This document shows positions 37,920 through 57,707 of a stretch of 64,000 nt of DNA, in pieces; position 1 is the first letter of the stretch, and each line of letters opens with the position of its first letter. Position numbers and translations under genes: made by a program. The notes under the pieces were generated by a model, which saw nothing but the letters and a program-made list of their open reading frames with translations, had not been told where the DNA came from and did no database searches. Source of the stretch: Senegalimassilia faecalis (GTDB lineage Bacteria; Actinomycetota; Coriobacteriia; Coriobacteriales; Eggerthellaceae); the NCBI RefSeq assembly GCF_004135645.1, contig NZ_SDPW01000001.1, forward strand, positions 2,046,001 to 2,110,000, in the 5' to 3' direction.

Positions 37920-37944
37920 AGCAGGGTCCTTCCTGCGAAAACAA

Positions 37945-38021
37945 CCGATTGCAAAGATTATAACCAACCAATTGCGAGGTTTTCAACCAACCGATTGCGA
38001 AATTTTTGACCAACCGATTGC
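37945..38021 (-). repeat. Four 23-bp direct repeats across the DUF4143 promoter
   Basis: The core CCGATTGC (once CCAATTGC) occurs at 37945, 37968, 37991 and 38014, exactly 23 bp apart, within a longer unit AACCAACCGATTGCGAAA. On the minus strand a promoter-like TTGAAA (37981-37986) and TATAAT (37957-37962) with an 18-bp spacer sit inside the array. This suggests tandem operator sites. The 23-bp period does not keep a reading frame, so the repeat is not protein-coding. Confidence 0.75.
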
Positions 38022-38290: not shown

Positions 38291-39724
38291 TTACCAGGTT
38301 GGCGGATCAACGCGCAGTGAGGTTCTTGCTTCACTGGGCCGCTCAAAAGCGCCAACGTCAGCATTGAGCCGCTTGGTCAGGCTGCTGATCGAGTAAAGGG
38401 GCAGATACGACACGACTTTCCCGCACTTCTCCTTTTCTCGAGCAGCGAATTCGGAAAGCACTACTGCCTCGGAAATACCGAATTCATCTGCGGAAAGCAG
38501 ATTGTTTAAGGCGCTATGAATCTTGTAATCCTTGCCGGACTTCACTTCAATCGGCAGCACCTGAGCCTCGTTGGTCTCAACGACGAAATCAACCTCACCG
38601 CGCCGGTTGTTGTGGTAGTAGCGCAGCTTAACACCTGCCGCCGCAAGCTCCTGAGCGACGAAGTTTTCGTAAACCGCGCCGAAATTCACGCTTTTGGCAC
38701 CGGCAAGAACATCAGCGGCCACCTCGATGGGATTGCGGGACATAAGCATCCCGCAATCATGCGCATACAGCTTGAAGCGCGAGGACTCTTCAGTGCGTGC
38801 AAGCATGAACTTAGGCTCCGTAACGTTAACCGCCTTAAGCGCAGTCTTCGCGCCGACAAGCCATGCGAAATCGTTCGCAAACCGTTCATAACGCGCCTGC
38901 TTTCGTAACGAGTTCAACTGAAAGCGCTTGTTTTCCTTGGCAAGCTGCTGCGGAATCTCATCGTAGATAGCCTTGACCTGCAGCGACCTTCCGTTCGCAT
39001 ATTTGGCAATGTCTTTCCGATACAAACGGACAAGGTCATTAAGAACCTCACGAACAGCACTTAAATCGTGCGAGGAATCGAGGTATGTTTGCACGGCCTC
39101 AGGCATACCGCCGATTACAAGGTACAGGCGGAACAGGTCGATAAGCTTCCCGTGGACTTCGTCAGAAATCGCACCCGGACCGCCGTTGCCAACGCCGGCC
39201 GAGTCAAGCACCATTTGAGGAACGTTTTGCGCCCAGCAGAATTCCTCAAACGTCAGAGGGTACATATGGAGGATGGTCATATACCCAACGGGAAACGACT
39301 TCACTTCCGTCAGCTCGACGCCAAGCATCGAGCCAGACATGACAACATCGAATCTGCCGTCTTCGAGCAGGTACTTCGAAATGGTCACGATGTTCTGCGC
39401 CTTTTGCACTTCGTCGAAAAACAGCAGCGTCTTCCTATCGCCAAGCGGTTTGCCAGAAATAAGGGAAACCATCTCGACAACCTGACGAGCGTCTTGCGCT
39501 TTACCAAGAAGCTCGACCGCGCGGGCATCGTTAAGGAAGTCGATTTTGATGTAACTGGCGTATTCGTTGCGCGCAAATTCCTCGATGAGGAACGTTTTAC
39601 CGATCTGACGTGCGCCGTCGACCAGCAGCACCTTTCTTTTTGCAGCCGCCTTCCACCGCAGCAAAGCATCATAGGCCATTCGTTTTAGCAATGCAATCCA
39701 ATCTCTTGGCACTAACACAACCAT
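38291..39724 (-). CDS. AAA+DUF4143 ATPase
   Basis: A 477-residue ATPase. Walker A DGARQIGKTFLIEEF is near residue 36, with TLLFFDEVQKAQNIVTISKY (Walker B) near 95 and VVMSGSMLGVELTEVKSFPVG. The middle has FEEFCWAQNVPQ and LVIGGMPEAVQTYLD. The DUF4143 C-terminal part has NFGAVYENFVAQELAAAG and a nuclease-like RRGEVDFVVETNEAQVLPIEVKSGK. The decayed gene at 54273 belongs to the same subfamily. The start is taken at 39724; an ATG at 39679 is possible and neither has a strong ribosome binding site. The upstream AT-rich region contains two copies of a TTGTGA-AT motif. Confidence 0.88.
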   Translation of the reverse strand: MVVLVPRDWIALLKRMAYDALLRWKAAAKRKVLLVDGARQIGKTFLIEEFARNEYASYIKIDFLNDARAVELLGKAQDARQVVEMVSLISGKPLGDRKTLLFFDEVQKAQNIVTISKYLLEDGRFDVVMSGSMLGVELTEVKSFPVGYMTILHMYPLTFEEFCWAQNVPQMVLDSAGVGNGGPGAISDEVHGKLIDLFRLYLVIGGMPEAVQTYLDSSHDLSAVREVLNDLVRLYRKDIAKYANGRSLQVKAIYDEIPQQLAKENKRFQLNSLRKQARYERFANDFAWLVGAKTALKAVNVTEPKFMLARTEESSRFKLYAHDCGMLMSRNPIEVAADVLAGAKSVNFGAVYENFVAQELAAAGVKLRYYHNNRRGEVDFVVETNEAQVLPIEVKSGKDYKIHSALNNLLSADEFGISEAVVLSEFAAREKEKCGKVVSYLPLYSISSLTKRLNADVGAFERPSEARTSLRVDPPTW

Positions 39725-40031
39725 TTTTAGCTGCTATTTGTACATTATCACAACTAAATTTTGGCAGCATTTTGGCATTTTCACAACTTTGGCGAAGGAT
39801 TCAAGGCTCCCGCGATTGCAGCAGGCAAATTACTGCAATAAGCATGCAATAACCTTAGAGCTTGATGGACTTTTCGCATGCTCATGCGAAAAGTTCCTCG
39901 ATTCCTGTCGTTTTATCAACCGCTAGCGCCCACACTTAGCAATTGCATGATGGCCCAGAACACTCATCGGCACCATTCAGAGAGGACAAGCAAGCGGCCC
40001 GATCACTCAGGGCCGCTTTATCACTCCCGCG
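39725..40031. other. Intergenic region with terminator of the giant gene
   Basis: 307 bases, no gene seen. Near 39750-39795 are two similar units, GCCAAAATTTAGTTGTGATAAT and GCCAAAGTTGTGAAAAT in minus-strand reading, upstream of the DUF4143 gene: possible operator sites. The rest, near 39990-40018, holds the hairpin listed separately. Confidence 0.4.
39992..40018 (-). terminator. Hairpin downstream of the giant surface protein gene
   Basis: A 9-bp perfect GC-rich stem, AAGCGGCCC (39992-40000) and GGGCCGCTT (40010-40018), 14 bp after the stop at 40032. The following bases GCTTGCTTG are only weakly U-rich. Confidence 0.6.
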
Positions 40032-43000
40032 CTAGCTATGCGAAATGCCGCTGGTGTTGATCTTCGACAGCGTGTAGGTGATGTAATCTGAATTCGGATA
40101 TCCCGAGTTCAGGGCTATGTTCACTGGCGTGTCGATCACGCTGCCGCTAGCGTCCAGTAGCTCGGCCGACAGTACCAGGCGATAGTTCGCATATGTGAAG
40201 TTGTTGTCCTCAACATCCGTATTAACCTTGACTGTGAACGGGAACTGAAACATCTTCGCGCTCTTCTGAGTAGCAAACGCATTGTTAGCCTTCTGATCAA
40301 TGAAGACGAAAGCGTCCTTGGTGCCCATCGGCGTCAAAGTCCCTTCTCCAAGCGGGCTTTCGATAACTGAGAAGTGGCTTTTAACAGACTCGTCCTCATA
40401 CGTCCCATCCGTCCCCGTACGCTTTTGCAACTTCAACATGTAGCGCACCGAAGTTGCCTCGCCAATCCTGTCATCAGCATCAATCATGGCGGACAAATCA
40501 TACGTTCCATATGCGGCAATGGTACCGTTGGCCAACGCCAAATCGTTCACGTTGATACCCAGCTGCGATTGCATGCTCGCCGACAACTCGATCGTGGAAT
40601 CACCGTTTTCCTCGCGATAGTAACCAACGGTACCTGGGATGTTTGCGGTGATGCTCGACGTTTCCAACGTGCTTTCGCTTACAGCCAAACTAGACTGGAA
40701 ACGTATCCTCGTGAAAGCCGAAGGCACCTGCTGCTGGTTCAACTGACCCGCTGCAATACCGGATAAACAAGCCATCTCGCTCATCTGGATCGAGTCGATT
40801 TTCACTTGAACAGTAAATGCTGCATCCTCAGTGTCTGCAGCGGTAGCCACGCTCGCCGCGACAGAACGGATGCCCGACAAGTCGTAGGGCAGCTGCAACT
40901 TCATCTCACCGCCATCGGACGACCAGGGAACTGATGCTCCGGCATCCGTTTTCGTAGACCCTACGCTTTTCCATCCGCTACCATCCCAAGTGTAGTATTC
41001 GTCGCCCACCTTCACATAAAAGTGCGCGGTTCCACTCACACCAGTCGGCCAGCCGCCAGCGCTTGTCAAGCTGCCATCTTTTCCGTACTGCCCCAACGAA
41101 CTGCTGAGCTGAAAGTACAGCTTGTCATTGGGGTTGTATTGCTGATTCCTGTTGAAGGTTACCGTGTCGGTAACGTCAAGAGGTAATCGATACCCAACCC
41201 CATCTTCGTTTTTGCAGGTACCCATCTCCGCGTATGCTCCCGAAACGTTGTCGCTCAGCTTTTGCCCATAGTTCGTATAGATGCTATATGTTGAAGCCGT
41301 GTTGGAATGGCTATCGGCGTCGAGAAGCTTCTCAGCATTGCGAGGACGAAGCGTCGCGTTCACGCGGCTGTTCACATTCGTGTCGATGCTGGAATATGTG
41401 TAACCGTTCACTGCCGCCTTCGTACCCGCTGGCACGGTGATGACAAGGTAGAAGTTTTCGCTAGGCGAAATCTCCATGCCCTTGTTCTCGCCCTCGGCAA
41501 CAGTAGCAACCTTGAGGGTGTACCTTGTGGCCGTATCAGATTCATTAGTAACGCGATAATACTTTACATCATCGCCCGAGCCGATCTTGGCTCCCGGATT
41601 ATCATCCTTCGAGCACTCGACCCATACGCCGTTGTTGTCTTCCAACGCCGTTACGCCCATCGTTTGGCTGAACCAAGGCTCTTCATAGCGAGACTTCCCA
41701 TCGACCGCGGCAACGAAGTCCGTGAGCTTGACCGACGTGGCCCCGCTTTGAGGAACCGTGTAATAGTACTCCTTGTCGTTGTCCGCCGTGTCGACCAACG
41801 TCAGTTGCGTACCAGCCGGCAAGGTTGGAGTCTTTCCGCTAAACAGGATCGACTTGTTCAGCGGGCCCATAGAACCACCGCTGGCAAGGTGCGTGTCCCA
41901 ACCATATTCCGTTGCGGATCCGTTTGCCTCGTTGTACGTCCAGGTGAGATAACCGGCCATCGACTCGCCGGAGCTGCTCAGCACGTGGCTGTTTTCGCCT
42001 AGCGTGCTGTAATCATCGGGATTGAACTTCGTGCCGTACGCATAGCTGGCAGTGAAGTCAATCTCGAGCATGCGCTTCACGATGATGGGCACCTGTACCT
42101 TGTACTTCTGCCCCGTCTCGGAGAAGGTGACGGTCAGCAACGTAAAACGATGCCTCTCGTTATCCCAGCTCGTAGAAGCACGGAACCCCATTGAAGTGGT
42201 GCCATCACCCACGACATACAACGATGCCGCATCGGCCGAACGCACAAACGATCCATCCGACTGCAATTCGAACATCTCGGCCTTCGCCGTCACATGAGGG
42301 CCGCCGGCGTCGTTATTGAGACGCACAGCGTCGGAAAAGCCACCGTTCGTCACAAGGTTAAGATAGTTCGCGACGGTCGTCGTGTCGTTGCCCGAAATCA
42401 ACAGGATGGGGAAATCGTCAGCAACTTGCGGAAACTTTCCGGTGCCTTCTGAAGACACCGTATTGTTCTTGTTGTAAGTGCTCGCAGCAGTTCCGGCACT
42501 GTAGCTGTTTGTGTTGTTGTATTGACCATCATCGGTGATTCCCCCGATATTGGTATAGGTGTAGCGACCAGGCTGGGGAAACCTTGCTTGCTCTTTGATT
42601 GTAGCCGCCGTGTCGATTGCGGCACCGTCACCGAACAGGTATTTTGGATCCCCACCCGAGGCATCCTTAACCGATAACTTGTTTTCCGGGTTGGTCGTGA
42701 CATACGGACTCACCGACTTCACGGTAGCCATGGAACCGTCAGCATTGTCATCATCGTTGTACAACCTGTTACCAGGGACAGCCTTGGGCTCATCTTTGTA
42801 ATCGGCAAAAGCGATGTAGGACTTCTTGTTGATTGCAGCCTTTTGGCTATCCTGACGGTAGTGCATGATTCCTGGATTATCGCTATTCGTCGCTCCGGTT
42901 TTCAGCTTGATTGCCAAACCCGCAACAGCGAAACGAGTCAAATCGCTATCAGCGACATCACCGAGCAAAAGCCCTTGGTGCGTTTTGTCTTCGAAGGCGT

Positions 43001-46000
43001 TTTCGGCAATCAGGATATTGCACATTCGAATCGTACCTTTTGCATCGCCAACAACTCCGCCCGAATAGGTGTAATTGCCATCGGGATGCGTCCACCCCAT
43101 ACACGAGTTCTTCTTGAACAGACTGTTTTCCACACGTGAGTTAACCACCGTTACGCTTGAACCGGTGCTGGACGTCTGGCCAAGAACACCGCCCGAATAC
43201 GCTCCATCAATTTGAATCGAGTCAATCGAAACCCCATCCGCAACGAACGAGCCTCCTGCAAGGGTGCCCATGATTCCGCCGCCAGATTCACGCGAAGCGA
43301 TTCTGATATTCGAAACAATGCAATCGCTATAGGACGAATATCGATTCCCATAGCCAACAAGGCCGCCGACGTACCTATAACGCTGGTTCCCCTGTTGTTG
43401 GCAACCGAAATAGTAGGCGTCAGTATCAGAAGCATTTTTGTCCGAGGTCACTTTCGCATGGGAAACGCTAACGGTATTGTTTTCGACATAACCCGCAATA
43501 CCCCCCAATCCTCTAGTAAAGTTCACACCCGTAGAACTCGACCCCTCTGGCCAATCGGTAGTTACCGTCGCGTTCGAAACCGTTACGTATTTTCCTGGTG
43601 AAGTTTTCCCGCCAACAACAACCTGTCCGCCCGTAAGGCCAACAATGCCACCAGCGGTATTGGCTTCACCGTTCCATCCATTAGTCGCCCGAATCACGGA
43701 ATTCGATGCGACGGGATTATAAGTCGTCACGTCTACCTCGCAATTCGATTTGCGAATCTTGCCGACAAAGCCGCCAGCATTGTGAGACGCCGTCACGGTG
43801 CAATCGATATAGGACGAATCCATCAGTTTGACTGGCGCCTGGAGAGAGCCCCAGCTATTCCACTCGATCTGAGTCATTCTTGAATACCGGTCCGTTGCAT
43901 TCGTACGCATTTTCATATAGCCGGCGTTGCCGAGCAGGCCACCCGCGCTAGAGACGCCCGTAACCGCGCATCCCGTCATGTGAACGTTTTTGTAAATGCC
44001 ATAATCAACCTGGCTATTCAGGTTCGACGTGATGCCAGCAAGGCACCCGACGCCGATGTGAACAGTGTCGTCATTCTTGTTTTCCAATACTTTGCCCGAC
44101 TCATCAATGTATTGGATAGACAAGTTGCAACTATCGAACGTCAAGTCTTTAACGGTTGCACCATCGTTCGCCTTGATGCTCTGATCCACCTTCTGCGACG
44201 TATACATCACGTTTCCGAACAGGGCTCCAACACCCGATACCTTGTAATCGTCGTTGGCGTATTCCTTGACATTTGAGACAACCTTAATCGACGCCCCGTT
44301 GCCGTTGATGCACGCAATCGGGGGCGTAATGAAGCGACGCTCCGCAGAAGGATAATTCGATACGCAGGCATTCGAATAATAGCGTCCCGACAAGCCCAGA
44401 TAGCCAGACCCGTAATCGGTCATATCGTAGTCAATGCCTTCGCCGCTTTGCTTAGCAAACTCGATAGCTACGCCGGAAATACCAAGTGCGCAAATATATC
44501 CCGTTGCCCAATTTGCATTAGTTCTTACCAGATATGGTGAATTGATCTCGCGTTTGTTGTTTTGCACCTCGGTGCTATTAAGAGGACCTTGCCAATTCTG
44601 GTTACCCGGCGCTTGCAAGTCATCATATTTCGAAAGGGACCAATTTTCATCAGCGGTACTTGCAACTGCGCCTACCGTACTGTATGCAGAGTTTCTTACT
44701 TTGCCATATTGCTCATTACCGAATTTATACTTCTTTGCCGCTAAGGCCGCATTGTTATAGGTTCTTCCCCGGTACGCATATGAACCACAAAACGGGCCAA
44801 CGTTAGGCATCACATAGCCCGAGCTTGCTGCTCCGGCCGCCGCACCGCTATTGATGATTGCGGAAAGAACAAGCAGCCCCTGTTTATCACTGACCGTGAC
44901 TTTCGCAGCCTCGTTCTTGCTTCCCCATGAGTAATTGTTATAAGTATTCGTGGTCGTAACACAACCCGTATCATTAGAGTCAAGCAGATTCACCTTATAG
45001 CTGCTGTCGCCATTATCCACTACGCATTTCTCACTGAATGCGTAGCCGTCGATTACGCGGCCAACATAGGGGTTGTCGTAAAGCGATGAGCCACCGTCGC
45101 GCCATTTCGAAACGTCATCGCTCATGCTGCGGAAGATCACGCCTCCGCCAGCAATGACGCCAATATAACCGCCAATGGGAACCAAGTGTGCCGACGAGGC
45201 AGCTCCGGCAACGCTGAAATTGCCTGTGTTTGAAACCGTTACCCCATCGATGATGTTGTCGCCGCCCACGATACAGCCGATCACGCCACCGAAGAATGCT
45301 TGGGGGACGCCGTTATTCGAGCTGCTCTTACCCGCATACGCCACACCGTTCGAACCCTGCAGGGCTTCGCTGCTATCGTATTCAACCGTGAGGCCCTTCA
45401 CCACACTGCCGTAGCTGTAGGGGATAAGGCCCATCAGCGTGCTGCTCTTTTTTTTCAGCACGAGCTTCGTCGGAACCGACTGACCTGTTACATTTTTGTT
45501 CAAGTTGCCAACGATCACGCCACGGAACGGATTCACTTCATTGCCAAAGCCCTGGAATGAATCGCCATCTAGAACGATTTCTCCGGAATCACCTGGCTCG
45601 ATGCTGTAATAGGCGCTCTGCAAGTAGCGTTGCATCGTGTCGCCTTCAAGTTTATCCGTCGAGTTATTTTTGTTGACCCAGCCGTTGCTTGTGCTGTAGA
45701 CGTATGTTACTTCGTTATCGTGATTGCTGGAATCGGCGCGGCGCTGACACAGCGTCTCCTGATCCTTGACAATTGTGATTTCCCATCCGTCCATGGCTGC
45801 AGCGTTTCCACTGCGGATAAAGTTTGATACTGCATACAGTTGATTGGCATTTACTATTGCGTACGGATCACCATAAGTGCCGCAGCCGGTCACCAAACTC
45901 GGGATGCGCTGATTGACTTTGATTTCGTGGAAGCTTTTATGTGAGCCTACAGGATCGCCGTCGTCGCTTTTATAGACGTAAGGAAGATAATCTCCAAATT

Positions 46001-49000
46001 TCGCGTCGTTTTCATTGGCTATATGGCCTCGATGATCATCAACCAGATTGCTGGAGTCTCCATAGCCTTCTTCGTCGTAGTACCAGAACTGCGACCCGTG
46101 ATATTCGCCGTTGGAGTCAATCTCCTCACCAAACGTAACCATTCCAGCAGTCTGATCCGACTTCACGAAGGTATAGCTTGCCGTACCGGTTTTACCATCA
46201 CCGTAGGCGAAGCTTTCCAGCAAGCTTGCATGCGTGAATATGCTACCGCCATTATTCAATGACGGGACGAAGACCTGGTTAAAAGTAGCCGAAACCATGT
46301 CGGCATTGCTGCCGCCAAGATTGCCAAAGAGACTGGTGCCCGCAGTCACCCATTTGTTCTCACTATTCTTGTAGTCAGACTCCGAGATACTGAGTTCTTT
46401 AACGTCTAAACCCGCAAACGTAGTCATGTCAGCAACAAGCAGCGGGGCATAATCCGGATCCGCATTGGCTACACGAAGCCCCTTTAACGTCAGACCGTTA
46501 ATGTTCACGACGGCTCTTCCACCAGCCGTATCCGACCCATTGGCAATTTTGCAGATCAAAGCTCCTGAAGTGATGGTTTTCCCATCATCGTCGATGTTCA
46601 TTCCTATTGTGCCGGACAACGTCGTGTTCTCGACGTTCATCGTCTTGTTGTCCGAACCAGTTGCCGCAAAATGCCTGAACAAACCAGCGTGCATATTCAT
46701 ATGCTGCGTCTGCTCGCTATTCTTCTTGTTGCCGTTTTCCTTTGCATTGACCTTCTCGTAGGCGAAGGTAATCGAAGCATTCCTGATAAACATCGCAATA
46801 TTGCTGGCATCCACAGGATAGTAGCTATATCCTGTTAGGTCAATTTCACCTCTAATACGAGCAGTACTCGTCATATAGGGATAGCCGTCAGATCCTGATG
46901 TTTTCACGATGTAGTCCCGAATGCCAGCCGCTGCATAAGTGGCCGCACTCCAAAGCAGCACCTCTTCAGGAGTTTCTAGCCATTGGATCCCGGTATGCTT
47001 ATTCTTGCTTTGAACCACCTCGAACGCTCGATCGAGGTTGTAATAATAGCGAGAATATTTATTTGTGGGATGATCTTGGCCAAACGCTGTCCGGTTCTCA
47101 TACGAGTTACGCTGATCGGCATCTTCCATATGCAACTTGTCATCAACCGTATGGAGCGAGACAACGCCATCCACGCCAACGTCCGTGACCAGGTACTTGG
47201 TACTCCAGTTGACTCCACGCGTATCAGCAATCCATTCGTCAAAATTTGCCGAGCCCTTTGTGGTAACGGCCCCTTTGTCTTCGTTCACCTTATAAGCGGT
47301 TTCCCACGGTGCCGCGTCGAGCAGATAGAGGCCACTGAGCCAATCGAAATAGCTCCCGTTACCCCTTGTGACGTTCCTGCCAGCACTGCACACGAGCATA
47401 CCAAACCAATCGGCATTTGGCGCGCTGAACGTCGCACCGGTCAAATCGATTGCGTAATCATTGATCGTCCATTTACCACTTGCGGCATACACCAGGCCGC
47501 CAAATTGCGTGACATTTTGAGCGGATACCGACGACTCGTTCGCCGTGAGCGCATAGTTGGCGGCACCGTTGTTCGCATCGCCGAAGTCAACAACTGCCTT
47601 TCCCCAGCTATAGCCCAATAAGCCGCCAGCAGTTTTGTTTCCCGTACTAACTCTATTCTCAATCGTAAGATTATCCAACGCGAGTTTCAAAATAGAGACA
47701 TGGGACTCAGCCGAGTTTCCGTTCCAGGAATCCTTCTCCCTGATAACGCCGATGAAGCCGCCAACACCGGCATAAATGTTCCCGTCTTTGCCGTCTGCAT
47801 AATTGATATTGCCAGAGATCGAAAGCCCCGATGCCGTGATTTGGGCCGCAGAATTTGCAGCAACAAGACCAATAGCGCCGCCAACGTTTGCGTTGCCGTT
47901 TTCCGTTTTAGCTGATGTTATGTTTGCCACAACTGCCGCGCCTGAGCCAAACGTCACGCTGCCCCCAGCGACAGTACCGATGATGCCACCAACCCGCGCG
48001 ACCTTGCCATCACCTGTGTTCTCGTAGTTGATAGCCGGCTTAAACGTAGAGTTCGTAACGCTTACTGTGCCGCTACTTTTTGCAGCAAGCGGTCCGGCAT
48101 CCACGCCAGCTTTATCGTCGAAGCGCATCGAGCCATCGATTGTGAGACCCGTGATCGTCGCACCATCACCCAGGGCCATGAACAAGCCAAGACTATCGTG
48201 GCGATACACCATACCGTTGCCATCACTGGTGTCGGAAACATTGATAGCGTTGTCTCCGCGCCAACCGTAGGCTTCGCCAACGGCTAGTTTTATCGTTTTG
48301 CCGTTACCGCTTACCCTTCCGGAAAAAGTTTGGCTCGCTGCGGGAAGCTCGCTCGCGTTTCCGGGTATCCGATCCTTCGTCAAGCCCGTGATTCCCGTGC
48401 CCGACAAATCAATATCTCCTTGAAGATTTATCGTCGCTGTCGCGATAGAGCTCACATTTCCCGCAGTAACACCATCCACGCACGAAAAGTATCCGCTTGT
48501 TTGCCAAGCAATAGCCAATTTCGCGAAGTCTGCCGCGCTTGGAAGCTGAAACACCCCTCCGCTCTTTGCAAGATTTGTTCCGCTGAAATGCCAATTATGG
48601 CCGTCATCCAGGAAGATGAAGTTGCTGTCGAGATTACCGCCAAGACGAATCACCTGGCCAAAGTCATAAATATCGTCAAGCTGAACCACGTTCGTCGGAC
48701 GCACGTATTTCCAACCAGTCGACGTGCTTTCAGCCGTAATCTCATTTCCGCCGCTTCCAGTCGCAAAAATCAAAGAGTTGAAATTCTCGTGCACCAGCAG
48801 AGCGGTTTTATCGTTTTTCTTGAACTTTGCTCCAGACAAATCGGTAATGCCACTGAACTTGATTATCCCCCGCCAAGACGATCCGGCAATGCCAGCAGAC
48901 TCACCGTTGTCACCGCCAATAGCCGCATTATCTGCCGTTGACACTGACAGATTCCGAACGTCCAGCACGTTGTTCGTGTCAAGAACACCGACCGCCCCGC

Positions 49001-50855
49001 CGAGCCTGCAAACATTCTGGAAAAAAGGTCCTCCACCTTTGTATGTAACGCTCACGCCGTCAAGCACAAGGGCAACGGTGTTAAGGCTGCTGCCACCCTG
49101 GCCTTCGTATCCCACGACGCCACCAGCTTGTCGCACTTTCGTATCGCCGGACAGCGCAAATTCAATAGACGCATCGCCTGAGACCGTCAGCGCCCGAAGC
49201 GCATTGCCAGCATTGCCATCCTTCTGCCCCCAAACGGAACCAACTAAACCGCCATATGCACCGCGTTTCGTGGTATCAGAGCTATCACGGCCATAGACGA
49301 GATCGCTTTTATACGTTCCTCCATCAATCGAGACATCGCCATTAGACAAATTCAACTCGCCGAACAACGCACCCGCCCGAGGTGCCTTCGCCTCGTTCTT
49401 TTCATTGGAGACGCTGAGCTTGACGCCTCCGCCATAATTCAACGCTTTACCGGAAATCGTGACGGCGGCCGAACCCGCGACAGCACTCCCTGCAAACAGA
49501 ACTTGGCCAATCACGCCACCAGCGTATAGGCAGCCCGCGCTGTCGCCCACGTTGAGTGCAGGCTTGACGGTGCCCGCATCGGCTTCTCTGCTCGGAAGCG
49601 TCAGCGTCAACCCGTTCGCTTTGCCGATGAGGCCACCGGACGCATTCGCGCCTTTCACGGTGAACGCGGAGACGTCCACCCCTGCAGCGATTTCAACCTC
49701 CGCCGCTTCCGTCGTATCGCTCCCGTTATCGTCAACGCAAACTGCGCCGACGAGGCCACCGGCGTTTACGGCTGCGGTAACCGTCGGAGTGCTCACGATG
49801 TCATCAGGCAAGCTGACGCTTGCAATCGTAAGTTTGCCATATGCAACAGTATTCGCAATCAAGCCGGCATTTGCCGTCGTGGAAGCAACGGCAAAGCCCT
49901 TGCGGGTGGCACCGTCCGTAAAGGAATACCCGGCACTTACCGCCAAGTTGCCCGAAGCGGTTCCCAACAGCGCCGAGGATGCAGCGGGGGTTGAAGGTTC
50001 GACGGTGACGGAGGCATCGAACGGATTCGCAAGCTGCACCTGGACGTTAAGCGTCTGGTCATTGCCGTCGATGCTCGCCGCAACGATAGGCTCGTTGTAT
50101 GTCGGAGCACCTTCCCATCTGATTTTGATGGAGCTGCTTGCGCTGTGGAGCTTAACGCCGTTGAACAGCGTGCGAGTGATTCGAAGCCACATATCATTCG
50201 GCAAGGTAAGAGAACCCTCGAATGGAACGGCTTTGCTTCCAAGGCCTTGGAACGTATATCCGCTTACCGGAGTGCACAAATCCAACCCCTCAGTGCCAGT
50301 CATACCCGAAAGGGAGATGTTGGCAGATTGGTACAAGCCGGGATCAGCATTCGAGAGGATCGGCAATCCAGCAACACCAGTAACGTTTACCGCAGTGACA
50401 GCGTCGGCAGGCGCCGTTACTGTTCCGCAGCTGTTATCCTCGAAAGCCTTCGCCAAATCAGAAACGGTGTGAATCGTCGGATCGCTATTCGCGGCGGCCG
50501 CGTCCTCTGCAGCTTGATCTGAGTTCTCATCGGAAGGTGCTTCGCCAGCAAGGTCGGTGGATTGCGCAGCTTTACTATCGGCATTGGATGCTGCCGAGTC
50601 GGACGTCGCAGCATCGACATCAGTCGCGGATTCGGCGGGCTCCTCCTCGGAGGGTGCCGCTTGCTCCCCATCGGAATCGGCCCGGCTACCCTGATCGGCG
50701 GCAGCATTCTCCGAAGCCTCTTGCCGACCAGCCGTTGCGGCTGCATTCGCCACCGTCTCCGCCATTGCGGACGGGACGGGAACCAGACCCTGGACTATGA
50801 GCACTGCCGAAAGGCATATCGCCACTATGCGTTTTGCCGAATTCGTCACCTGCAC
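40032..50855 (-). CDS. Giant secreted beta-helix surface protein (3607 aa)
   Basis: A GTG at 50855, preceded by ATGAGGT four bases upstream, begins a signal peptide (basic RIVAICLSAVLIVQGLVPVP, cleavage after SAMA). The open frame continues much further upstream but has no better start. Residues about 35-120 are an acidic Ala/Ser/Glu/Asp linker. Residues about 230-2600 carry many GG-hydrophobic-G units (GGLVGAV, GGVIGQV, GGIIGTVAGG, GGFVGKI, GGVVGDAKG) typical of right-handed parallel beta-helices of the GLUG/pectate-lyase type. The last 800 residues are beta-rich, Ig-like (NDTTTVANYLNLV onward). I see no LPXTG, SLH, CWB2 or C-terminal membrane anchor. It is the last gene of an operon with three anchored proteins, and may be a secreted adhesin or fibre component held by them. 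Confidence 0.85.
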   Translation of the reverse strand: MQVTNSAKRIVAICLSAVLIVQGLVPVPSAMAETVANAAATAGRQEASENAAADQGSRADSDGEQAAPSEEEPAESATDVDAATSDSAASNADSKAAQSTDLAGEAPSDENSDQAAEDAAAANSDPTIHTVSDLAKAFEDNSCGTVTAPADAVTAVNVTGVAGLPILSNADPGLYQSANISLSGMTGTEGLDLCTPVSGYTFQGLGSKAVPFEGSLTLPNDMWLRITRTLFNGVKLHSASSSIKIRWEGAPTYNEPIVAASIDGNDQTLNVQVQLANPFDASVTVEPSTPAASSALLGTASGNLAVSAGYSFTDGATRKGFAVASTTANAGLIANTVAYGKLTIASVSLPDDIVSTPTVTAAVNAGGLVGAVCVDDNGSDTTEAAEVEIAAGVDVSAFTVKGANASGGLIGKANGLTLTLPSREADAGTVKPALNVGDSAGCLYAGGVIGQVLFAGSAVAGSAAVTISGKALNYGGGVKLSVSNEKNEAKAPRAGALFGELNLSNGDVSIDGGTYKSDLVYGRDSSDTTKRGAYGGLVGSVWGQKDGNAGNALRALTVSGDASIEFALSGDTKVRQAGGVVGYEGQGGSSLNTVALVLDGVSVTYKGGGPFFQNVCRLGGAVGVLDTNNVLDVRNLSVSTADNAAIGGDNGESAGIAGSSWRGIIKFSGITDLSGAKFKKNDKTALLVHENFNSLIFATGSGGNEITAESTSTGWKYVRPTNVVQLDDIYDFGQVIRLGGNLDSNFIFLDDGHNWHFSGTNLAKSGGVFQLPSAADFAKLAIAWQTSGYFSCVDGVTAGNVSSIATATINLQGDIDLSGTGITGLTKDRIPGNASELPAASQTFSGRVSGNGKTIKLAVGEAYGWRGDNAINVSDTSDGNGMVYRHDSLGLFMALGDGATITGLTIDGSMRFDDKAGVDAGPLAAKSSGTVSVTNSTFKPAINYENTGDGKVARVGGIIGTVAGGSVTFGSGAAVVANITSAKTENGNANVGGAIGLVAANSAAQITASGLSISGNINYADGKDGNIYAGVGGFIGVIREKDSWNGNSAESHVSILKLALDNLTIENRVSTGNKTAGGLLGYSWGKAVVDFGDANNGAANYALTANESSVSAQNVTQFGGLVYAASGKWTINDYAIDLTGATFSAPNADWFGMLVCSAGRNVTRGNGSYFDWLSGLYLLDAAPWETAYKVNEDKGAVTTKGSANFDEWIADTRGVNWSTKYLVTDVGVDGVVSLHTVDDKLHMEDADQRNSYENRTAFGQDHPTNKYSRYYYNLDRAFEVVQSKNKHTGIQWLETPEEVLLWSAATYAAAGIRDYIVKTSGSDGYPYMTSTARIRGEIDLTGYSYYPVDASNIAMFIRNASITFAYEKVNAKENGNKKNSEQTQHMNMHAGLFRHFAATGSDNKTMNVENTTLSGTIGMNIDDDGKTITSGALICKIANGSDTAGGRAVVNINGLTLKGLRVANADPDYAPLLVADMTTFAGLDVKELSISESDYKNSENKWVTAGTSLFGNLGGSNADMVSATFNQVFVPSLNNGGSIFTHASLLESFAYGDGKTGTASYTFVKSDQTAGMVTFGEEIDSNGEYHGSQFWYYDEEGYGDSSNLVDDHRGHIANENDAKFGDYLPYVYKSDDGDPVGSHKSFHEIKVNQRIPSLVTGCGTYGDPYAIVNANQLYAVSNFIRSGNAAAMDGWEITIVKDQETLCQRRADSSNHDNEVTYVYSTSNGWVNKNNSTDKLEGDTMQRYLQSAYYSIEPGDSGEIVLDGDSFQGFGNEVNPFRGVIVGNLNKNVTGQSVPTKLVLKKKSSTLMGLIPYSYGSVVKGLTVEYDSSEALQGSNGVAYAGKSSSNNGVPQAFFGGVIGCIVGGDNIIDGVTVSNTGNFSVAGAASSAHLVPIGGYIGVIAGGGVIFRSMSDDVSKWRDGGSSLYDNPYVGRVIDGYAFSEKCVVDNGDSSYKVNLLDSNDTGCVTTTNTYNNYSWGSKNEAAKVTVSDKQGLLVLSAIINSGAAAGAASSGYVMPNVGPFCGSYAYRGRTYNNAALAAKKYKFGNEQYGKVRNSAYSTVGAVASTADENWSLSKYDDLQAPGNQNWQGPLNSTEVQNNKREINSPYLVRTNANWATGYICALGISGVAIEFAKQSGEGIDYDMTDYGSGYLGLSGRYYSNACVSNYPSAERRFITPPIACINGNGASIKVVSNVKEYANDDYKVSGVGALFGNVMYTSQKVDQSIKANDGATVKDLTFDSCNLSIQYIDESGKVLENKNDDTVHIGVGCLAGITSNLNSQVDYGIYKNVHMTGCAVTGVSSAGGLLGNAGYMKMRTNATDRYSRMTQIEWNSWGSLQAPVKLMDSSYIDCTVTASHNAGGFVGKIRKSNCEVDVTTYNPVASNSVIRATNGWNGEANTAGGIVGLTGGQVVVGGKTSPGKYVTVSNATVTTDWPEGSSSTGVNFTRGLGGIAGYVENNTVSVSHAKVTSDKNASDTDAYYFGCQQQGNQRYRYVGGLVGYGNRYSSYSDCIVSNIRIASRESGGGIMGTLAGGSFVADGVSIDSIQIDGAYSGGVLGQTSSTGSSVTVVNSRVENSLFKKNSCMGWTHPDGNYTYSGGVVGDAKGTIRMCNILIAENAFEDKTHQGLLLGDVADSDLTRFAVAGLAIKLKTGATNSDNPGIMHYRQDSQKAAINKKSYIAFADYKDEPKAVPGNRLYNDDDNADGSMATVKSVSPYVTTNPENKLSVKDASGGDPKYLFGDGAAIDTAATIKEQARFPQPGRYTYTNIGGITDDGQYNNTNSYSAGTAASTYNKNNTVSSEGTGKFPQVADDFPILLISGNDTTTVANYLNLVTNGGFSDAVRLNNDAGGPHVTAKAEMFELQSDGSFVRSADAASLYVVGDGTTSMGFRASTSWDNERHRFTLLTVTFSETGQKYKVQVPIIVKRMLEIDFTASYAYGTKFNPDDYSTLGENSHVLSSSGESMAGYLTWTYNEANGSATEYGWDTHLASGGSMGPLNKSILFSGKTPTLPAGTQLTLVDTADNDKEYYYTVPQSGATSVKLTDFVAAVDGKSRYEEPWFSQTMGVTALEDNNGVWVECSKDDNPGAKIGSGDDVKYYRVTNESDTATRYTLKVATVAEGENKGMEISPSENFYLVITVPAGTKAAVNGYTYSSIDTNVNSRVNATLRPRNAEKLLDADSHSNTASTYSIYTNYGQKLSDNVSGAYAEMGTCKNEDGVGYRLPLDVTDTVTFNRNQQYNPNDKLYFQLSSSLGQYGKDGSLTSAGGWPTGVSGTAHFYVKVGDEYYTWDGSGWKSVGSTKTDAGASVPWSSDGGEMKLQLPYDLSGIRSVAASVATAADTEDAAFTVQVKIDSIQMSEMACLSGIAAGQLNQQQVPSAFTRIRFQSSLAVSESTLETSSITANIPGTVGYYREENGDSTIELSASMQSQLGINVNDLALANGTIAAYGTYDLSAMIDADDRIGEATSVRYMLKLQKRTGTDGTYEDESVKSHFSVIESPLGEGTLTPMGTKDAFVFIDQKANNAFATQKSAKMFQFPFTVKVNTDVEDNNFTYANYRLVLSAELLDASGSVIDTPVNIALNSGYPNSDYITYTLSKINTSGISHS

Positions 50856-50889
50856 GTTTACCTCATTCCATATGCACCGCAATCGCGGG

Positions 50890-51900
50890 TTAATCAACCT
50901 TCTTGACCGAAATGCCCAATTCGGACCAGTCGCTTGGCACCACGTCCCCATGACGGTAAAAATTCACGACGGTTCCGCCAGGCTGCAGGGTCAGCGTCGC
51001 TTTACCAGCCCGCTTGTCAACAACAGCACTGAACCTCGTATTGAAGAAGTAGTCCAAATCAACCTTGGTAGGGTCCCAACTCAGTTCGACTTGCGCCTCT
51101 TGAGCCGTGACAGTGATGCGGTAGTTGTAAGCGTCATACTTACTGAACGGGATGACGTTGCTGTCCATATCCTTCGCGTCCTTGTCGACGAACGCGCCTT
51201 CGACCGAAGCGCTCTGCACAACGACGCGCTCATTCGGGATGATTTTAGCGGCAAGGCAATTGAGCGTAGTGCCCGGGCTGTTCCGAACGTCAACCGCTGC
51301 TTTCACCGTAAAGTACGCATTTTCCGTTAAGGCTTGTTTCGGGAAGGTGATGGTGTACGTGTCGATTTTCGCGCGGCCACCCAAAAACGTTGAAGGCTGC
51401 CCAACTTCCGGCACGCCTTCACTGCGAGAAATCGTCCAATTATCGCCACTCCAATTATGGAGAACAACGGACAGCGTATAGGTTACGTCTTTCATGTTGA
51501 CGACGTTTTGGTCAGCGGGCAAGCAGTTGTAAACGCTGAACGTGAAGCTACAATTGCCCGAGGCATCAGGGTCGACCGCTAGCAATTGCTCGGCAGGGTT
51601 CTCCTCAGGATCTTGGGTATACGAATACAGCAGATCGGAGGCGAACAGGCTTTGCGTGTCGTTAGTAACGACGACACCTTTTAAATAGTCGCCAGCCATA
51701 AAGGCAGAGTATGTCACGCGCATACCCGTTGCCAGTGCCACTAAGCACAAAACAAGGGTGCCGGCCACGAGCGCACGCTTAGCATGCCTACGCACGGCGC
51801 GTGCAGCGGGCACCTTCGCCATCGCCTTCGCGGGAGCGTTCGCCGCGGCCTCGTTGATAGGTTGCACTTCGGCCTTCGTTTCGTTGTCTGCGCTGCTCAT
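50890..51900 (-). CDS. Membrane-anchored secreted protein, SipW/TasA-like family
   Basis: A 336-residue protein: 45-residue cytoplasmic N-terminus (basic RRHAKRALVAG), one helix at about 48-65 (LVLCLVALATGMRVTYSAFM), then an extracellular beta-rich domain with SFTFSVYNCLPADQN and RITVTAQEAQVELSWDP. The ATG at 51900 has AAGGAGG upstream. The helix-plus-beta layout matches the anchored proteins at 51958, 52788, 57708, 58920 and 60274, though the YAWFVSNN motif is replaced by TYSAFMAGDYLKG. It lies 34 bp before the giant protein gene and is probably part of the same surface structure. Function unknown. Confidence 0.72.
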   Translation of the reverse strand: MSSADNETKAEVQPINEAAANAPAKAMAKVPAARAVRRHAKRALVAGTLVLCLVALATGMRVTYSAFMAGDYLKGVVVTNDTQSLFASDLLYSYTQDPEENPAEQLLAVDPDASGNCSFTFSVYNCLPADQNVVNMKDVTYTLSVVLHNWSGDNWTISRSEGVPEVGQPSTFLGGRAKIDTYTITFPKQALTENAYFTVKAAVDVRNSPGTTLNCLAAKIIPNERVVVQSASVEGAFVDKDAKDMDSNVIPFSKYDAYNYRITVTAQEAQVELSWDPTKVDLDYFFNTRFSAVVDKRAGKATLTLQPGGTVVNFYRHGDVVPSDWSELGISVKKVD

Positions 51901-51957
51901 GTTCGACACCTCCTTCACTATCCTCGTTGTGCGATATATGCGCGCATGGTGGGTTTT

Positions 51958-52785
51958 CTACGACGTTGCTCCCGCTTCCGACCCTCGAGCGATCAGATAC
52001 AGGACGTCGGTCTCTTTCTGGCTTTCCGTCCATTGAAGCTTCAGAATGAAGTTCGTGACGTCAGCGGCAGAGCCATCTTCCTTCTGATCGAGGTTGTTGC
52101 TTGAGGTTCCCCCAAAAAGCGCATAGCGATACAACGGTGCAGCATTGGCTTGGATGCCGCCCGAATTTTCCTTACCCGCGTAATCGCCAAACGTCGGGTC
52201 TTTCGAATCTCGCGGCTTAGCGGCAATGCCCGAATCGCTTTGATTGATGAACTCGAATTCAATCGGGTTACCCACCGCCGTCCAGTAGTAAGGCTGTCCA
52301 AAAACCGTGCCAGACACCGTCTCGCTCCCCGTATGGCCCACTGCAACGCGATACACTTCGATATTCAAGTCGCTGATATTCGTGGTGTTCGCCAACTGCA
52401 GCTCGAACGGACCGCCATCGCTTTTCACGCAGAACGGGCGGTACAGGGTAACCTTCCCGTCCTGGTCCACGTTGTCGGACGTGTACGACATGTCGATTTG
52501 CTCGATGGCCGTAGCATTCGGGCCGAGCACGCGCAGCTGTTTGGGCTCCTGCACTTTTCCAACTGTTGACGCGCTTTGACCGGCAACAAACCAACCGAAC
52601 GTCAGGCAGACGATGATGGCGATAACAGCCAGAAGCGAAAGCGCAGCCATCAACCGCTTGCGCTTGTCGACGTACCAGGGACTTTTTGCCACCGCAGCCG
52701 AGGCGTCCTGCGGCGCGTCGACTTGCGCGGCGACGGACGGGGCCGTGGCCTCGAGCTCCGAGCTGTTGTTCGGACGATCGGTCAT
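51958..52785 (-). CDS. Membrane-anchored secreted protein, SipW/TasA-like family
   Basis: A 275-residue protein with a cytoplasmic tail (residues 1-42), a helix at about 45-66 (ALSLLAVIAIIVCLTFGWFVAG) and an extracellular beta-rich domain (FELQLANTTNISDLNIEVYR, NFILKLQWTESQKETDVLYL). The helix runs directly into the GWFVAGQSAS variant of the family motif YAWFVSNN. It starts 2 bp after the stop of the upstream gene. The domain edges suggest a small fibre-subunit-like fold, but no family is certain; a true TasA relation is inference. Confidence 0.72.
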   Translation of the reverse strand: MTDRPNNSSELEATAPSVAAQVDAPQDASAAVAKSPWYVDKRKRLMAALSLLAVIAIIVCLTFGWFVAGQSASTVGKVQEPKQLRVLGPNATAIEQIDMSYTSDNVDQDGKVTLYRPFCVKSDGGPFELQLANTTNISDLNIEVYRVAVGHTGSETVSGTVFGQPYYWTAVGNPIEFEFINQSDSGIAAKPRDSKDPTFGDYAGKENSGGIQANAAPLYRYALFGGTSSNNLDQKEDGSAADVTNFILKLQWTESQKETDVLYLIARGSEAGATS

Positions 52786-52787
52786 TG

Positions 52788-53810
52788 CTAGTTGTTCACC
52801 TCCTGCGCGGAGAAACGCAGCTGGAAATACTCGACCTGAGAGCCAAGCTGCTCGTCAGCGTAGTTGTAGTACAGCGAGCACGTGTCCATGTTGTTCGAGG
52901 ACATGCTTGGGGAAACCTCGGGGACCATTTTCGGCGTGAAGTACCGTCCCTGATTGTCGAGGGCTGCGTAGTAGCAGCCGAGATTTTTGTTGATATCGGC
53001 TTGCAGAGTTGCATAGCCCGCGCTGTCGAACGCCGTCGTGTCCGAGGCGGGAGCAAACAGGTTCTGGTAGTAATTCACATTGCCAGTCAGCACGAACGCC
53101 TGGAGCTGCGACGGCCATGCCCAGTAAAGCGTGCGGGTAACAGTCTTCGTAGTCTTGCCGCTTTCGTCTTGAAACTCGGACGACACAACGGTCAGGACAT
53201 CGGAGATCAGGGGGTTGGAGTAGTATCCGCTCGCATCCTTCCCCGGAAACACGCCTTCCCCATCCTTCTTCTCAAAGAACAGGATGTGCCCGCGGAATAG
53301 GTCACAGAGGGTGCCATCCTTCTGAACCTCCCCCACAGAGTTATCGCTTGTCCGCAGCTGCACCGCGCGCTCTAAGCTAACCTGGACGTTTCCCAAGTCG
53401 GTGGCTACAGGCGTGACGGTGAACTGGATGGTGCCCGAAGCACCAGGCCCAACTTCGCCGCCGTTGTAATTGTTCAGATTCACGGTTGCCGAAACCGCCA
53501 TGGAATCATTAGTGCCAAACGCAGCCACATTGTCATACACGCCTTGATGCGTATCGTCCCCCGAGACACCTGTCAACGCAAAACGATCGCCCTTCGCGCT
53601 GAGGGTTGCCGTTTCGGCCTTTACTTGGTTGTTGCTGACAAACCAGGCTAGGCTGGCGAGGATGATAATTATGGCTGCCATCACGAACAGGCCGCTTACC
53701 AGGAAACGCTTCCAGAAGTCCTTGAGCGTTTGCGCGTGGGCGTCGGCCGCTTGGCGGTATTGCTCCGCCGTTTTCGGCTCGAGTTCGCTTTGTTCGCGCT
53801 TGCTGGTCAT
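52788..53810 (-). CDS. Membrane-anchored secreted protein, SipW/TasA-like family
   Basis: A 340-residue protein: a cytoplasmic tail of about 35 residues, a helix (FLVSGLFVMAAIIIILASLA) ending in the motif WFVSNNQVKAETATLSAKGD, then an extracellular domain (FTVTPVATDLGNVQVSLERAV, LFRGHILFFEKKDGEG, VEYFQLRFSAQEV). The motif is nearly the same as WFVSNNTVKATTASVSAQ in the 58920 protein. The ATG at 53810 has no good ribosome binding site; a GTG at 53879 is the alternative. It is the first gene of the four-gene operon with the giant protein. A TAAAAT -10 lies at 53922-53927. Confidence 0.72.
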   Translation of the reverse strand: MTSKREQSELEPKTAEQYRQAADAHAQTLKDFWKRFLVSGLFVMAAIIIILASLAWFVSNNQVKAETATLSAKGDRFALTGVSGDDTHQGVYDNVAAFGTNDSMAVSATVNLNNYNGGEVGPGASGTIQFTVTPVATDLGNVQVSLERAVQLRTSDNSVGEVQKDGTLCDLFRGHILFFEKKDGEGVFPGKDASGYYSNPLISDVLTVVSSEFQDESGKTTKTVTRTLYWAWPSQLQAFVLTGNVNYYQNLFAPASDTTAFDSAGYATLQADINKNLGCYYAALDNQGRYFTPKMVPEVSPSMSSNNMDTCSLYYNYADEQLGSQVEYFQLRFSAQEVNN

Positions 53811-53949: not shown

Positions 53950-54029
53950 TTATCCAGCTTGCAAATCTCACATATTGCGCGAGGCGTAAGGCAACGGTCG
54001 ACATTCGTGCTAACGCTGATCAAGGCGCA

Positions 54030-54225
54030 TAAACGTATCCGGATGACGCGCAGGAAATAGTCGAGCCGGGGGCAACCCGGCTCGACAGCCTAACAACCAC
54101 CGCGCCGCCCGCGACTCTGAAGTGCGACAGCCTAGGAGACGGGCTTGCTGGTGTACCTGCAGTATTCGAAAGCGGCCAGACCCGAGGCAAGCCGCTTTCG
54201 ACAACGATTCGGGAACTTCGCGCAG
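54030..54225 (+). repeat. Type I toxin-antitoxin-like repeat, copy A (truncated)
   Basis: This 196-bp copy has the toxin C-terminal frame (LTLIKAHKRIRMTRRK, TAG at 54058), hairpin 1 GTCGAGCCGGG / CCCGGCTCGAC at 54060-54086, and hairpin 2 CGAAAGCGGC / GCCGCTTTCG at 54167-54200. The antisense -10 is AATACT. No toxin start or leader remains, so it is 5'-truncated. It sits between the anchored-protein operon and the decayed DUF4143 gene. Confidence 0.7.
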
Positions 54226-54272
54226 GGGCCGGCACGCACCGGCCAACATGTGCGGCGCGTGCTAGCCAGCCG

Positions 54273-55475
54273 CTATTCGGGCCACACAATGGGCGGCAGC
54301 TCGATTTCATTCAGCAACTTCACCGATGACTCGCCCGACGACCCTTCTGCCGCCACGAACCCAGCCATATACAGCGGCAAATACGTTAACCGCTTTCCGC
54401 ACCTCGTTTGTAACGACACGTTCGCTTCGGTCAGCACCACCGCTTCCGAGATGCCGAATTCGCTGGTCCCCAAAAGGGTGTTCAGCGCCGTGTGAAGCTT
54501 ATAGTCCTTGCCGGACTTCACCTCGATAGGCAAAATTCCGCCCGTTGCCTTTTCCATCAGAAAATCCACTTCGCCACGCTTGCTATGGTGATAGTAGTAC
54601 AGCTCAACGCCCGCCGCAGCCAGCTCTTGCGCGACAAAGTTCTCGTACACCGCGCCGAAATTCACCGACCGCTCCCCCATAAGCGCCGACATCGCCGTCT
54701 GAGCAGGGTATTGAGCAACAAGCATTCCCACATCGGAGCTATAAAGCTTGAACCGATTGACCTCGGCGGTGCGAGCCAACATGGGCCGAGGGTCGGAAAC
54801 ATTGTCGACTTTCAGCGCAGCGCGGGCGGCGGTCAGCCATGCGAAATCGTTCGCGAAACGATTGTACTTCGCCTCTTTCGCCACCGCCTTGAGTTGAAAC
54901 CGTTTGTTCTCCTTGCTAAGCTGAGCGGGTATCTCTTGAAAATCGCCTTGACCTGCGGCGACCGCGTTCCCGCATATTTTGCGATGTCTTCGCGATATAG
55001 CCTAGCCAAATCCGTCTGAACTTCGCGGACCGCGCCTAAATCGCGCTTGCCAGTGATACTTTTCTGCACTGCTGCCGGCATTCCGCCGATCACGAGATAC
55101 CGGCGAAACAGCTGAATGAGCGCATCATGAACCGGTGCATCAACCGGAATCTTCTCTTCATAGCACGTGCGAACTTGGCTCAAAATCGTATCGGGAACGC
55201 CCTGTGCCCAGCAAAACTCCTCAAACGAAAGCGGAAACATGTCCAAAATGCGCAGATATCCGACCGGCATGGAGCGTATCCACCGCAGCTTCGATCCCAA
55301 CATAGACCCCGACAAAACCACATCGAAGCGCCCATCTTGCACAAGGTACTTCGACAGCGCAACCACTTCAGGGGCCATTTGCACTTCATCGAAAAAAAAT
55401 CAACGTGGAATCGGGCCGCAAAGCCTGACCTAGTTCGAGCGAAAGCAAATCGACAACCTGATCGGCGTTTTTTGC
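54273..55475 (-). pseudogene. Decayed AAA+DUF4143 ATPase gene, 5'-truncated
   Basis: It belongs to the same subfamily as the 38291 protein (VLSGSMLG, FEEFCWAQGVPD, NFGAVYENFVAQELAAAG, VDFLMEKATGGILPIEVKSGK). The part before FSAKNADQVVDLLSLELG, including Walker A, is missing. The frame breaks at a run of eight A/T near 55392-55399 (seven restore LIFFDEVQMAPEVV) and near 54950, where one missing base turns IFQEIPAQLSKEN into KRYPLSLARRT. Beyond that, the C-terminus to 54273 is intact. Two frameshifts and a lost 5' end show it is no longer functional. It is flanked by repeat copies A and B. Confidence 0.85.
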
Positions 55476-55566
55476 ACTGAATTATTCGTGGGCGCTCCCA
55501 GCGTCATTCGCAAAGCCGGCTGTATTCGTTGCCGCGCCGTTACCCGAACTCTAGCTTGCTAGCGAA

Positions 55567-55572
55567 TACAAT
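55567..55572 (+). promoter_or_regulatory. -10 element of the toxin-like peptide gene
   Basis: TACAAT, eight bases before CACCAGCAA at 55581, which is the same 5' sequence predicted for the opposing antisense RNA. No consensus -35 is seen. Confidence 0.4.
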
Positions 55573-55633
55573 AGGAACTCCACCAGCAAGGTCCGAACGT
55601 GGGCGGCGCTTCTTGCGAGAGGAGTGATCGCCT

Positions 55634-55747
55634 ATGGATATAATCCACGAAATTCTCGACTGCATGGCTGATATAGCCACGGTGCTGGCCTTCGCGCTTG
55701 CACTGATCGAGACATATAAACGGTGTCGGATGGGGCGGAAGAAGTAG
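55634..55747 (+). CDS. Type I toxin-like hydrophobic peptide (37 aa)
   Basis: ATG at 55634 with AGAGGAG nine bases upstream encodes 37 residues: MDIIHEILDC, a hydrophobic stretch ADIATVLAFALALIETY and a basic tail KRCRMGRKK. Size and layout match Fst/TxpA/holin-like type I toxins, which insert in the membrane. The tail is conserved in truncated copies A (KRIRMTRRK) and C (NRMTRKK), which supports it being coded. A hairpin starts at the stop codon, and an antisense promoter faces it from 55851-55880, so an RNA antitoxin probably controls it. No database match can be given. Confidence 0.6.
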   Translation: MDIIHEILDCMADIATVLAFALALIETYKRCRMGRKK

Positions 55748-55772
55748 TCGAGCCAGGTTGCAGCCTGGCTCG

Positions 55773-55843
55773 ATAATTCATATCCACCGCGCCGCCCGCG
55801 AGCTCTAAAGTCTAACCCACTGCAGAGACGGGCTTTGCTGGTG
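55773..55843 (-). ncRNA. Predicted antisense antitoxin RNA
   Basis: Predicted from the promoter at 55851-55880 and hairpin 1 as its stop; length about 70-100 nt. It overlaps the 3' region of the convergent toxin transcript. The 5' end CACCAGCAA equals the predicted 5' end of the toxin mRNA. It is an inference from layout; no transcript data are available. Confidence 0.4.
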
Positions 55844-55850
55844 TACCTGC

Positions 55851-55880
55851 AGTATACGAAAGCGGCCCGCCCCAAGGCAA
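55851..55880 (-). promoter_or_regulatory. Antisense RNA promoter of the toxin-like locus
   Basis: Minus strand: TTGCCT at 55880-55875 and consensus TATACT at 55856-55851 with an 18-bp spacer that contains one arm of hairpin 2. The RNA would start near 55843 with CACCAGCAAAG and run towards hairpin 1, opposite the 3' part of the toxin mRNA. Copy A has AATACT and copy C TATGCT in the same place. Confidence 0.6.
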
Positions 55881-55909
55881 GCCGCTTTCGGTAACGTTTT
55901 AGGAACTTC

Positions 55910-56062: not shown

Positions 56063-56072
56063 GCCGAACCCG

Positions 56073-57696: not shown

Positions 57697-57707
57697 CAGC
57701 CGCTGAA

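Follow-up and report, generated by a model that had tools for sequence, protein, structure and literature searches.

The window analysed here is a 64,000-nucleotide stretch of Senegalimassilia faecalis DNA (G000:C1:2046001-2110000), taken from a 2.75-Mb genome of the family Eggerthellaceae that is 99.9% complete. Its minus strand carries a gene cluster that is transcribed in the order PilZ, 60274, 58920, 57708, an insertion, P0004, P0003, P0002 and a giant gene. The features are listed below; genes are designated by a label or by their first coordinate, and ↓ marks a cleavage-type site.

39993-40019, minus strand: GC-rich hairpin with a weak T tail, just past the giant gene
40032-50855, minus strand: giant gene, GTG start with GAGG upstream, secreted protein of 3,607 aa
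50890-51900, minus strand: P0002, SipW-type signal TYS↓AF, low-confidence Ig-like ectodomain
51958-52785, minus strand: P0003, SipW-type signal TFG↓WF, beta domain, proposed TasA-like fibre subunit
52788-53810, minus strand: P0004, SipW-type signal SLA↓WF, beta domain, PG box VGPGASGTIQF, proposed TasA-like subunit
53990-57700: insertion that splits the cluster into two halves, without counterpart in the congener G097
54273-55384, minus strand: broken DUF4143-type ATPase gene, within the insertion
55634-55747, plus strand: small transmembrane (TM) ORF of 37 aa, MDIIHEILDCMADIATVLAFALALIETYKRCRMGRKK, with an AGGAG site and then a hairpin, in the best repeat copy of the insertion
56073-57410, minus strand: HipA_C-like gene, within the insertion
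57708-58721, minus strand: predicted TasA-like protein, 337 aa, SipW-type signal TYA↓WY
58920-59765, minus strand: predicted TasA-like protein, 281 aa, SipW-type signal TYA↓WF, weak PF12389 match
60274-61461, minus strand: single-TM protein, ~135 aa on the cytoplasmic side plus an ectodomain, proposed membrane base
61465-62289, minus strand: PilZ gene, likely start 62130, YcgR-like (PF07238, E 6.7e-12), proposed c-di-GMP sensor

Layout of the cluster and its counterpart in a congener

P0004, P0003 and P0002 are single-helix proteins of 340, 275 and 336 aa whose genes, all on the minus strand, are separated from each other and from the giant gene by 2, 57 and 34 bases. A sequence-only reading of this DNA had described three single-helix proteins and a 3,607-residue secreted protein in a tight operon, and we found its coordinates and lengths to be correct; a longer giant ORF reported by the ORF tool (3,639 aa) overlaps the preceding gene, and the 3,607-aa form was used. 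Two relatives of the small proteins and a PilZ gene, which had likewise been placed near the operon, lie just upstream (57708-58721, 58920-59765 and 61465-62130/62289), and a further member of the cluster, the single-TM protein 60274, sits between PilZ and 58920. The hairpin past the giant gene is a possible operon end and is missing from the list of a strict terminator scan. When all cluster proteins were searched against Pfam and NCBIfam, the PilZ protein and the neighbouring AAA/DUF4143 genes were the sole matches above cut-off. Downstream of the giant, two such AAA_14/DUF4143 ATPase genes (36639-37967 and 38291-39724, minus strand) are neighbours, and other DUF4143-like pieces were seen at 35099-35722 and 54273-55384; this family is locally multiplied and partly decayed.

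The congener G097 (UBA5906) keeps the order PilZ-60274-58920-57708-P0004-P0003-start of P0002, and since the order is retained the arrangement is more than chance. Its homologues of 57708 and P0004 lie 165 bp apart with no insertion between them, such that the cluster can be taken as one unit into which the stretch 53990-57700 was probably inserted later; the reading frames of the split cluster are intact. The insertion contains three repeat copies of up to ~230 nt, partly decayed, which alternate with the HipA_C-like and ATPase genes. The 37-aa TM ORF and hairpin of the best copy resemble a type I toxin-like unit of the small hydrophobic kind, of which a similar copy (84%) is found in G097 (C170); the unit had no match in Rfam. 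The G097 contig stops inside the P0002 homologue, where the S↓AF site is kept, and hence short of the giant position; the remainder of this 84%-complete genome yielded no giant. In another congener, G096 (99% complete), we detected no SipW above cut-off and no small-protein genes of this type.

Conservation between the window and G097 is uneven. The fibre-like proteins share 44-49% identity with their homologues (P0004 47%, P0003 44%), whilst conservation is highest in PilZ (87%) and in the TM segment and ectodomain of 60274 (90%), a pattern which fits a conserved base and control with diversifying outer parts. Across 138 Eggerthellaceae genomes, convincing matches to P0004 and 60274 were obtained in the congener alone. 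The PilZ protein has intact RxxxR (RRDER) and DxSxxG (DVSAGG) motifs, and three GGDEF matches are present in the genome; the system is possibly under c-di-GMP control. The ectodomain of 60274 ends in a WLDGDDPEC motif that is common to 57708.

Cleavage context and fold of the small proteins

The helix of the small proteins ends in [AGS]↓[WA][FY], mostly with an aromatic residue at P2 as well. Nine proteins of the genome carry such a site, five of them in the window (P0004, P0003, P0002, 57708 and 58920) and four at a second locus, L012. The sites seen are TYA↓WF, TYA↓WY, TFA↓WF, SLA↓WF, TFG↓WF and TYS↓AF, the exceptions being a P1 glycine in P0003, a P1 serine in P0002 and a non-aromatic leucine at P2 in P0004. 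At the TasA site, TWA↓AF, cleavage by the ordinary signal peptidase (LepB) is impeded by the aromatic residues at P2' and P2, and SipW cuts instead (PMC10269814). Judging by these signals, together with the profile and fold comparisons below, we regard the small proteins as probable fibre subunits of the TasA/camelysin kind that SipW processes, rather than as permanent anchors. They had been described as anchored beta proteins; the beta domains hold, whilst permanent anchoring is now doubted because of the TasA-type cleavage context. No SipW-type site was found in 60274, and the giant carries an ordinary signal peptide (..VPVPSAMA↓ETV), not one of the SipW type.

The genome encodes two ER-type SipW peptidases ~200 kb from the window, scoring 113.8 and 81.7 bits against TIGR02228 (cut-off 51.85) and both carrying the Ser-His pair in S[DG]SM or TGSM and THR motifs. 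No sipW is present among the genes of the window operon, the nearest being ~0.2 Mb off. One of the two lies directly behind four genes of the small-protein family (L012 11524-15831; G000:C1 ~1896.5-1900.8 kb). This locus constitutes a second operon, with four apparently TasA-like proteins and a SipW and without a giant, located beside an apparent rRNA operon. The second sipW (L013 3075-3797) is found ~7 kb beyond it, behind an IS21-type istA/istB pair. The cleavage-type signals, the distant SipW genes and the insertion were absent from the sequence-only reading.

None of the small proteins in the window passes a curated model for TasA/camelysin or for the SipW signal (PF12389, TIGR04088, NF046066). 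The closest approaches were 12.9 bits against a cut-off of 19 for TIGR04088 (SipW-dependent signal), on one of the L012 paralogues, and 12.9 bits against a cut-off of 22.5 for PF12389 (camelysin), on the N-terminus of 58920; because these cut-offs are missed, the window proteins are not filed in the curated TasA/camelysin families. An alignment of the L012 proteins, 57708, 58920 and the congener homologues revealed a common signal, a proline found in every sequence and, at the C-terminal end, the motif W/Y-x-EG-x-D-x-x-C/S. By profile comparison P0004 matched the 57708 family (93%) and P0003 matched both P0004 (63%) and the 57708 family (60%), so that P0003, P0004, 57708 and 58920 form one profile group, with P0002 apart. 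A PDB sequence search with the small-protein profile returned no match. For 57708, an AF2 model was built from eight sequences (pLDDT 64, pTM 0.65). With this model, Foldseek ranked the TasA fibre 8aur first among 350,542 PDB chains (E 7.9e-3, probability 0.82), and VIA placed TasA at ranks 1, 2 and 4 (Z 5.6, 5.5 and 5.3), with an archaeal bundling pilus fifth and CanA sixth; these scores are moderate, and lie in a Z range where a mere common arrangement can score. What makes a TasA-like fold of 57708 probable in our view is that the leading ranks are largely taken by TasA structures and a TasA-like fibre from archaea, together with the signals, which are independent evidence.

The model of P0002 was poor (pLDDT 50) and appears Ig-like, with TasA absent among its best 50 matches. 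The likeness that had been claimed for the small proteins thus holds for the four that group by profile and not for P0002. TapA, which has a complete V-set Ig fold, starts TasA filaments (PMC10151520), and a TapA-like role for P0002 as initiator or connector is by analogy a fair guess: it has the SipW-type signal and is encoded beside the subunits, and its Ig-like fold comes from a low-confidence model.

The giant protein and related operons in the Eggerthellaceae

The giant begins with a Ser/Thr/Ala-rich N-terminal region, followed by three GGxxG blocks (aa 366-619, 956-1077 and 2305-2599) and a C-terminal domain with a motif common to other Eggerthellaceae giants (aa 3011-3049). The motif GG[LVIAF][VIALF]G occurs 18 times against an expectation of 0.56, with a maximum of 4 in 1,000 shuffles, and the repeats in the three blocks are mostly spaced by 36-58 residues. 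The protein had been called a giant beta-helix. A solenoid is likely from this strong enrichment, whilst none of the Pfam beta-helix models passes, Pectate_lyase_5 being a weak match (E 0.076); a PDB sequence search also returned nothing. No LPxTG was present in the last 60 residues, and with no C-terminal signal of this type we rejected the giant as a sortase-anchored protein or part of a sortase pilus.

Among the 138 Eggerthellaceae genomes there was no clear full-length homologue of the giant, and a search with its C-terminus likewise gave none. An HMM of the C-terminal stretch from the giants of five relatives did match the window giant (E 7.2e-6; i-E 1.2e-4 for the aligned part), ranking it above all other unrelated ORFs and 200 shuffles (best 0.01). 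As this single short stretch was chosen after a BLAST match (E 0.001) and by eye, the C-terminal kinship is supportive, not conclusive.

SipW-type peptidases occur in 58 of the 138 genomes. We read ~60 SipW neighbourhoods, with profile searches used for operon counts, and found operons laid out in the same way in six further genomes from five genera (G028, G052, G054, G066, G084 and G137). Co-occurrence elsewhere with a giant gene, proposed as a check on the sequence-only reading, is thereby borne out. The order in these relatives is a small protein (..AKYT), SipW, a small protein (..ARY), an Ig-like small protein and the giant, the last having 4,858, 4,758, 1,990, 1,844, 1,810 and ~1,830 aa. 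The giant gene follows the Ig-like gene immediately; the spacing measured in five cases lies between -44 and +46 bases. SipW is part of every surveyed operon by construction; adjacency to a giant is not. Small beta proteins, an Ig-like protein and a giant thus come in the same order as in the window, and the C-terminal stretch of the giant is common; unlike the window, the relatives have sipW within the operon and other giant repeats, and divergence puts most small-protein pairs beyond detection by sequence. The profile links that do exist are position-specific: P0004 matches group c1 of the relatives' operons (84%), and the best match of P0002 is group c3, the protein directly before the giant (70.4% or 28.8%, depending on direction), which suggests that P0002 is the counterpart of that gene. 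Furthermore, the c2 small protein of the G066 operon passes PF12389, at 22.8 bits against the cut-off of 22.5.

In four SipW operons, an uncharacterised protein of 450-580 aa (..LGRSASGPLGQ.. or ..LGRFS..) lies between the first small protein and the second SipW (L068 9539-11287, L067 7031-8668, L080 10231-11580 and L089 8976-10514); it has no evident counterpart in the window operon. Others (L069, L070, L072, L090, L100, L114 and L119) represent another type of SipW operon, with SipW alongside several proteins that are secreted or of the AYFTD type. Three of these (L069, L100 and L119) also encode secreted proteins of ~1,200-1,350 aa, in part unlike the type found in the six genomes.

A candidate fibre system and its alternatives

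Based on the gene order, the TasA-type cleavage context, the SipW genes with their Ser-His pair, the recurrence in relatives and the predicted TasA-like fold of one member, we consider it probable that the cluster specifies a divergent extracellular fibre system, one that operates as the Bacillus SipW/TasA (camelysin) fibres do and is coupled to a giant secreted beta-rich protein. In such a system Sec would export 58920, 57708, P0004 and P0003, a SipW encoded elsewhere would cleave them behind the membrane helix, and the N-terminus thus freed (W/A-F/Y-...) would complete the following subunit as a donor strand and so drive polymerisation. P0002, the last gene product before the giant, would start the fibre or link it to the giant, which may be made together with it and serve as the outer adhesive or spacer part. 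The protein 60274 would remain in the membrane as the fibre base, and the co-located PilZ protein may tie assembly to c-di-GMP. A more ambitious version, which we offer tentatively and would put somewhat below an even chance, is that the Eggerthellaceae possess a surface organelle peculiar to them. Its TasA-like, donor-strand fibre would have an Ig-like starter joined to a beta-solenoid adhesin of 1,800-4,900 aa encoded by the following gene, with assembly gated by c-di-GMP through PilZ and a conserved membrane base.

The strongest competitor leaves the small proteins as a TasA-like matrix and makes the giant an independent, co-transcribed adhesin or matrix protein outside the fibre. Its ordinary signal peptide would suit this, and the relatives' giants vary widely in length (1,810-4,858 aa) and in repeat type, as free-standing adhesins do; the Ig-like SipW-type protein directly before the giant in relatives nevertheless suggests a pair and the common C-terminal stretch a docking part, and we regard an independent giant as rather doubtful. 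That the small proteins stay uncleaved and tether the giant as membrane anchors, with no fibre, is less probable again. The cytoplasmic N-regions of P0002-P0004 are long (~35-45 aa), unlike a minimal signal peptide, the giant lacks LPxTG and needs some holder, and 60274 is without a SipW-type site, all of which would agree with anchoring. Against this, nine proteins retain the cleavage context of TasA, as does the congener (S↓AF, P0002 homologue), and SipW co-occurs both in the genome and inside the relatives' operons, making permanent anchors unlikely.

Type IV pilin-like or archaellin-like subunits were also considered, given that one N-terminus weakly matched Arch_flagellin (E 0.85) and that the archaeal bundling pilus is among the fold matches, although this pilus is itself TasA-like (PMC9674648). 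As the cleavage-like context follows the helix rather than preceding it, the helix would be lost, and TasA structures rank above pilins; this identity is highly improbable and was rejected.

The proposed SipW-processed fibre coupled to a giant can be compared with several known systems. Most of what is known of TasA-type fibres comes from Bacillus and archaea. As in the tapA-sipW-tasA biofilm fibre of Bacillus subtilis, the system has a TasA-type cleavage context, ER-type SipW in the genome and several beta subunits with a putatively Ig-like partner, and TasA is the top structural match of the 57708 model; it differs in having more subunits, a 3,607-aa giant and a PilZ gene, in having no sipW in the operon, and in that its small proteins give no match above curated family cut-offs. 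The Bacillus cereus operon sipW-calY1-bc_1280-calY2, with the chaperone-like CapP, is by its description alike in being sortase-independent and in combining an unrelated helper with at least two subunits of the camelysin type (PMC13082335, PMC10151520), and unlike in having no giant protein. Clostridium perfringens sipW-bsaA likewise involves a SipW-dependent secreted protein and filaments in biofilm, whereas the part of that report consulted names no giant and no Ig-like partner (PMC7395162). Archaeal bundling pili (7ueg), described as TasA-like fibres (PMC9674648), and the cannula protein CanA (9dlo) resemble 57708 by structural match, among its top six, and differ in being archaeal.

A literature search, with most subscription journals beyond its reach, returned no account of such a system in the Eggerthellaceae or Coriobacteriia. 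The earlier proposal of an undescribed surface fibre or adhesion apparatus therefore survives in part: it is the best reading and recurs in relatives, whilst the subunit type is already known (TasA/camelysin), and the new part, as read from sequence, is the coupling to a giant in seven genomes. Such systems escape current family models, lying below their detection limit. If the interpretation is true, a diverged TasA-type fibre with a giant secreted protein would be a candidate colonisation or biofilm organelle of a gut actinobacterial family.
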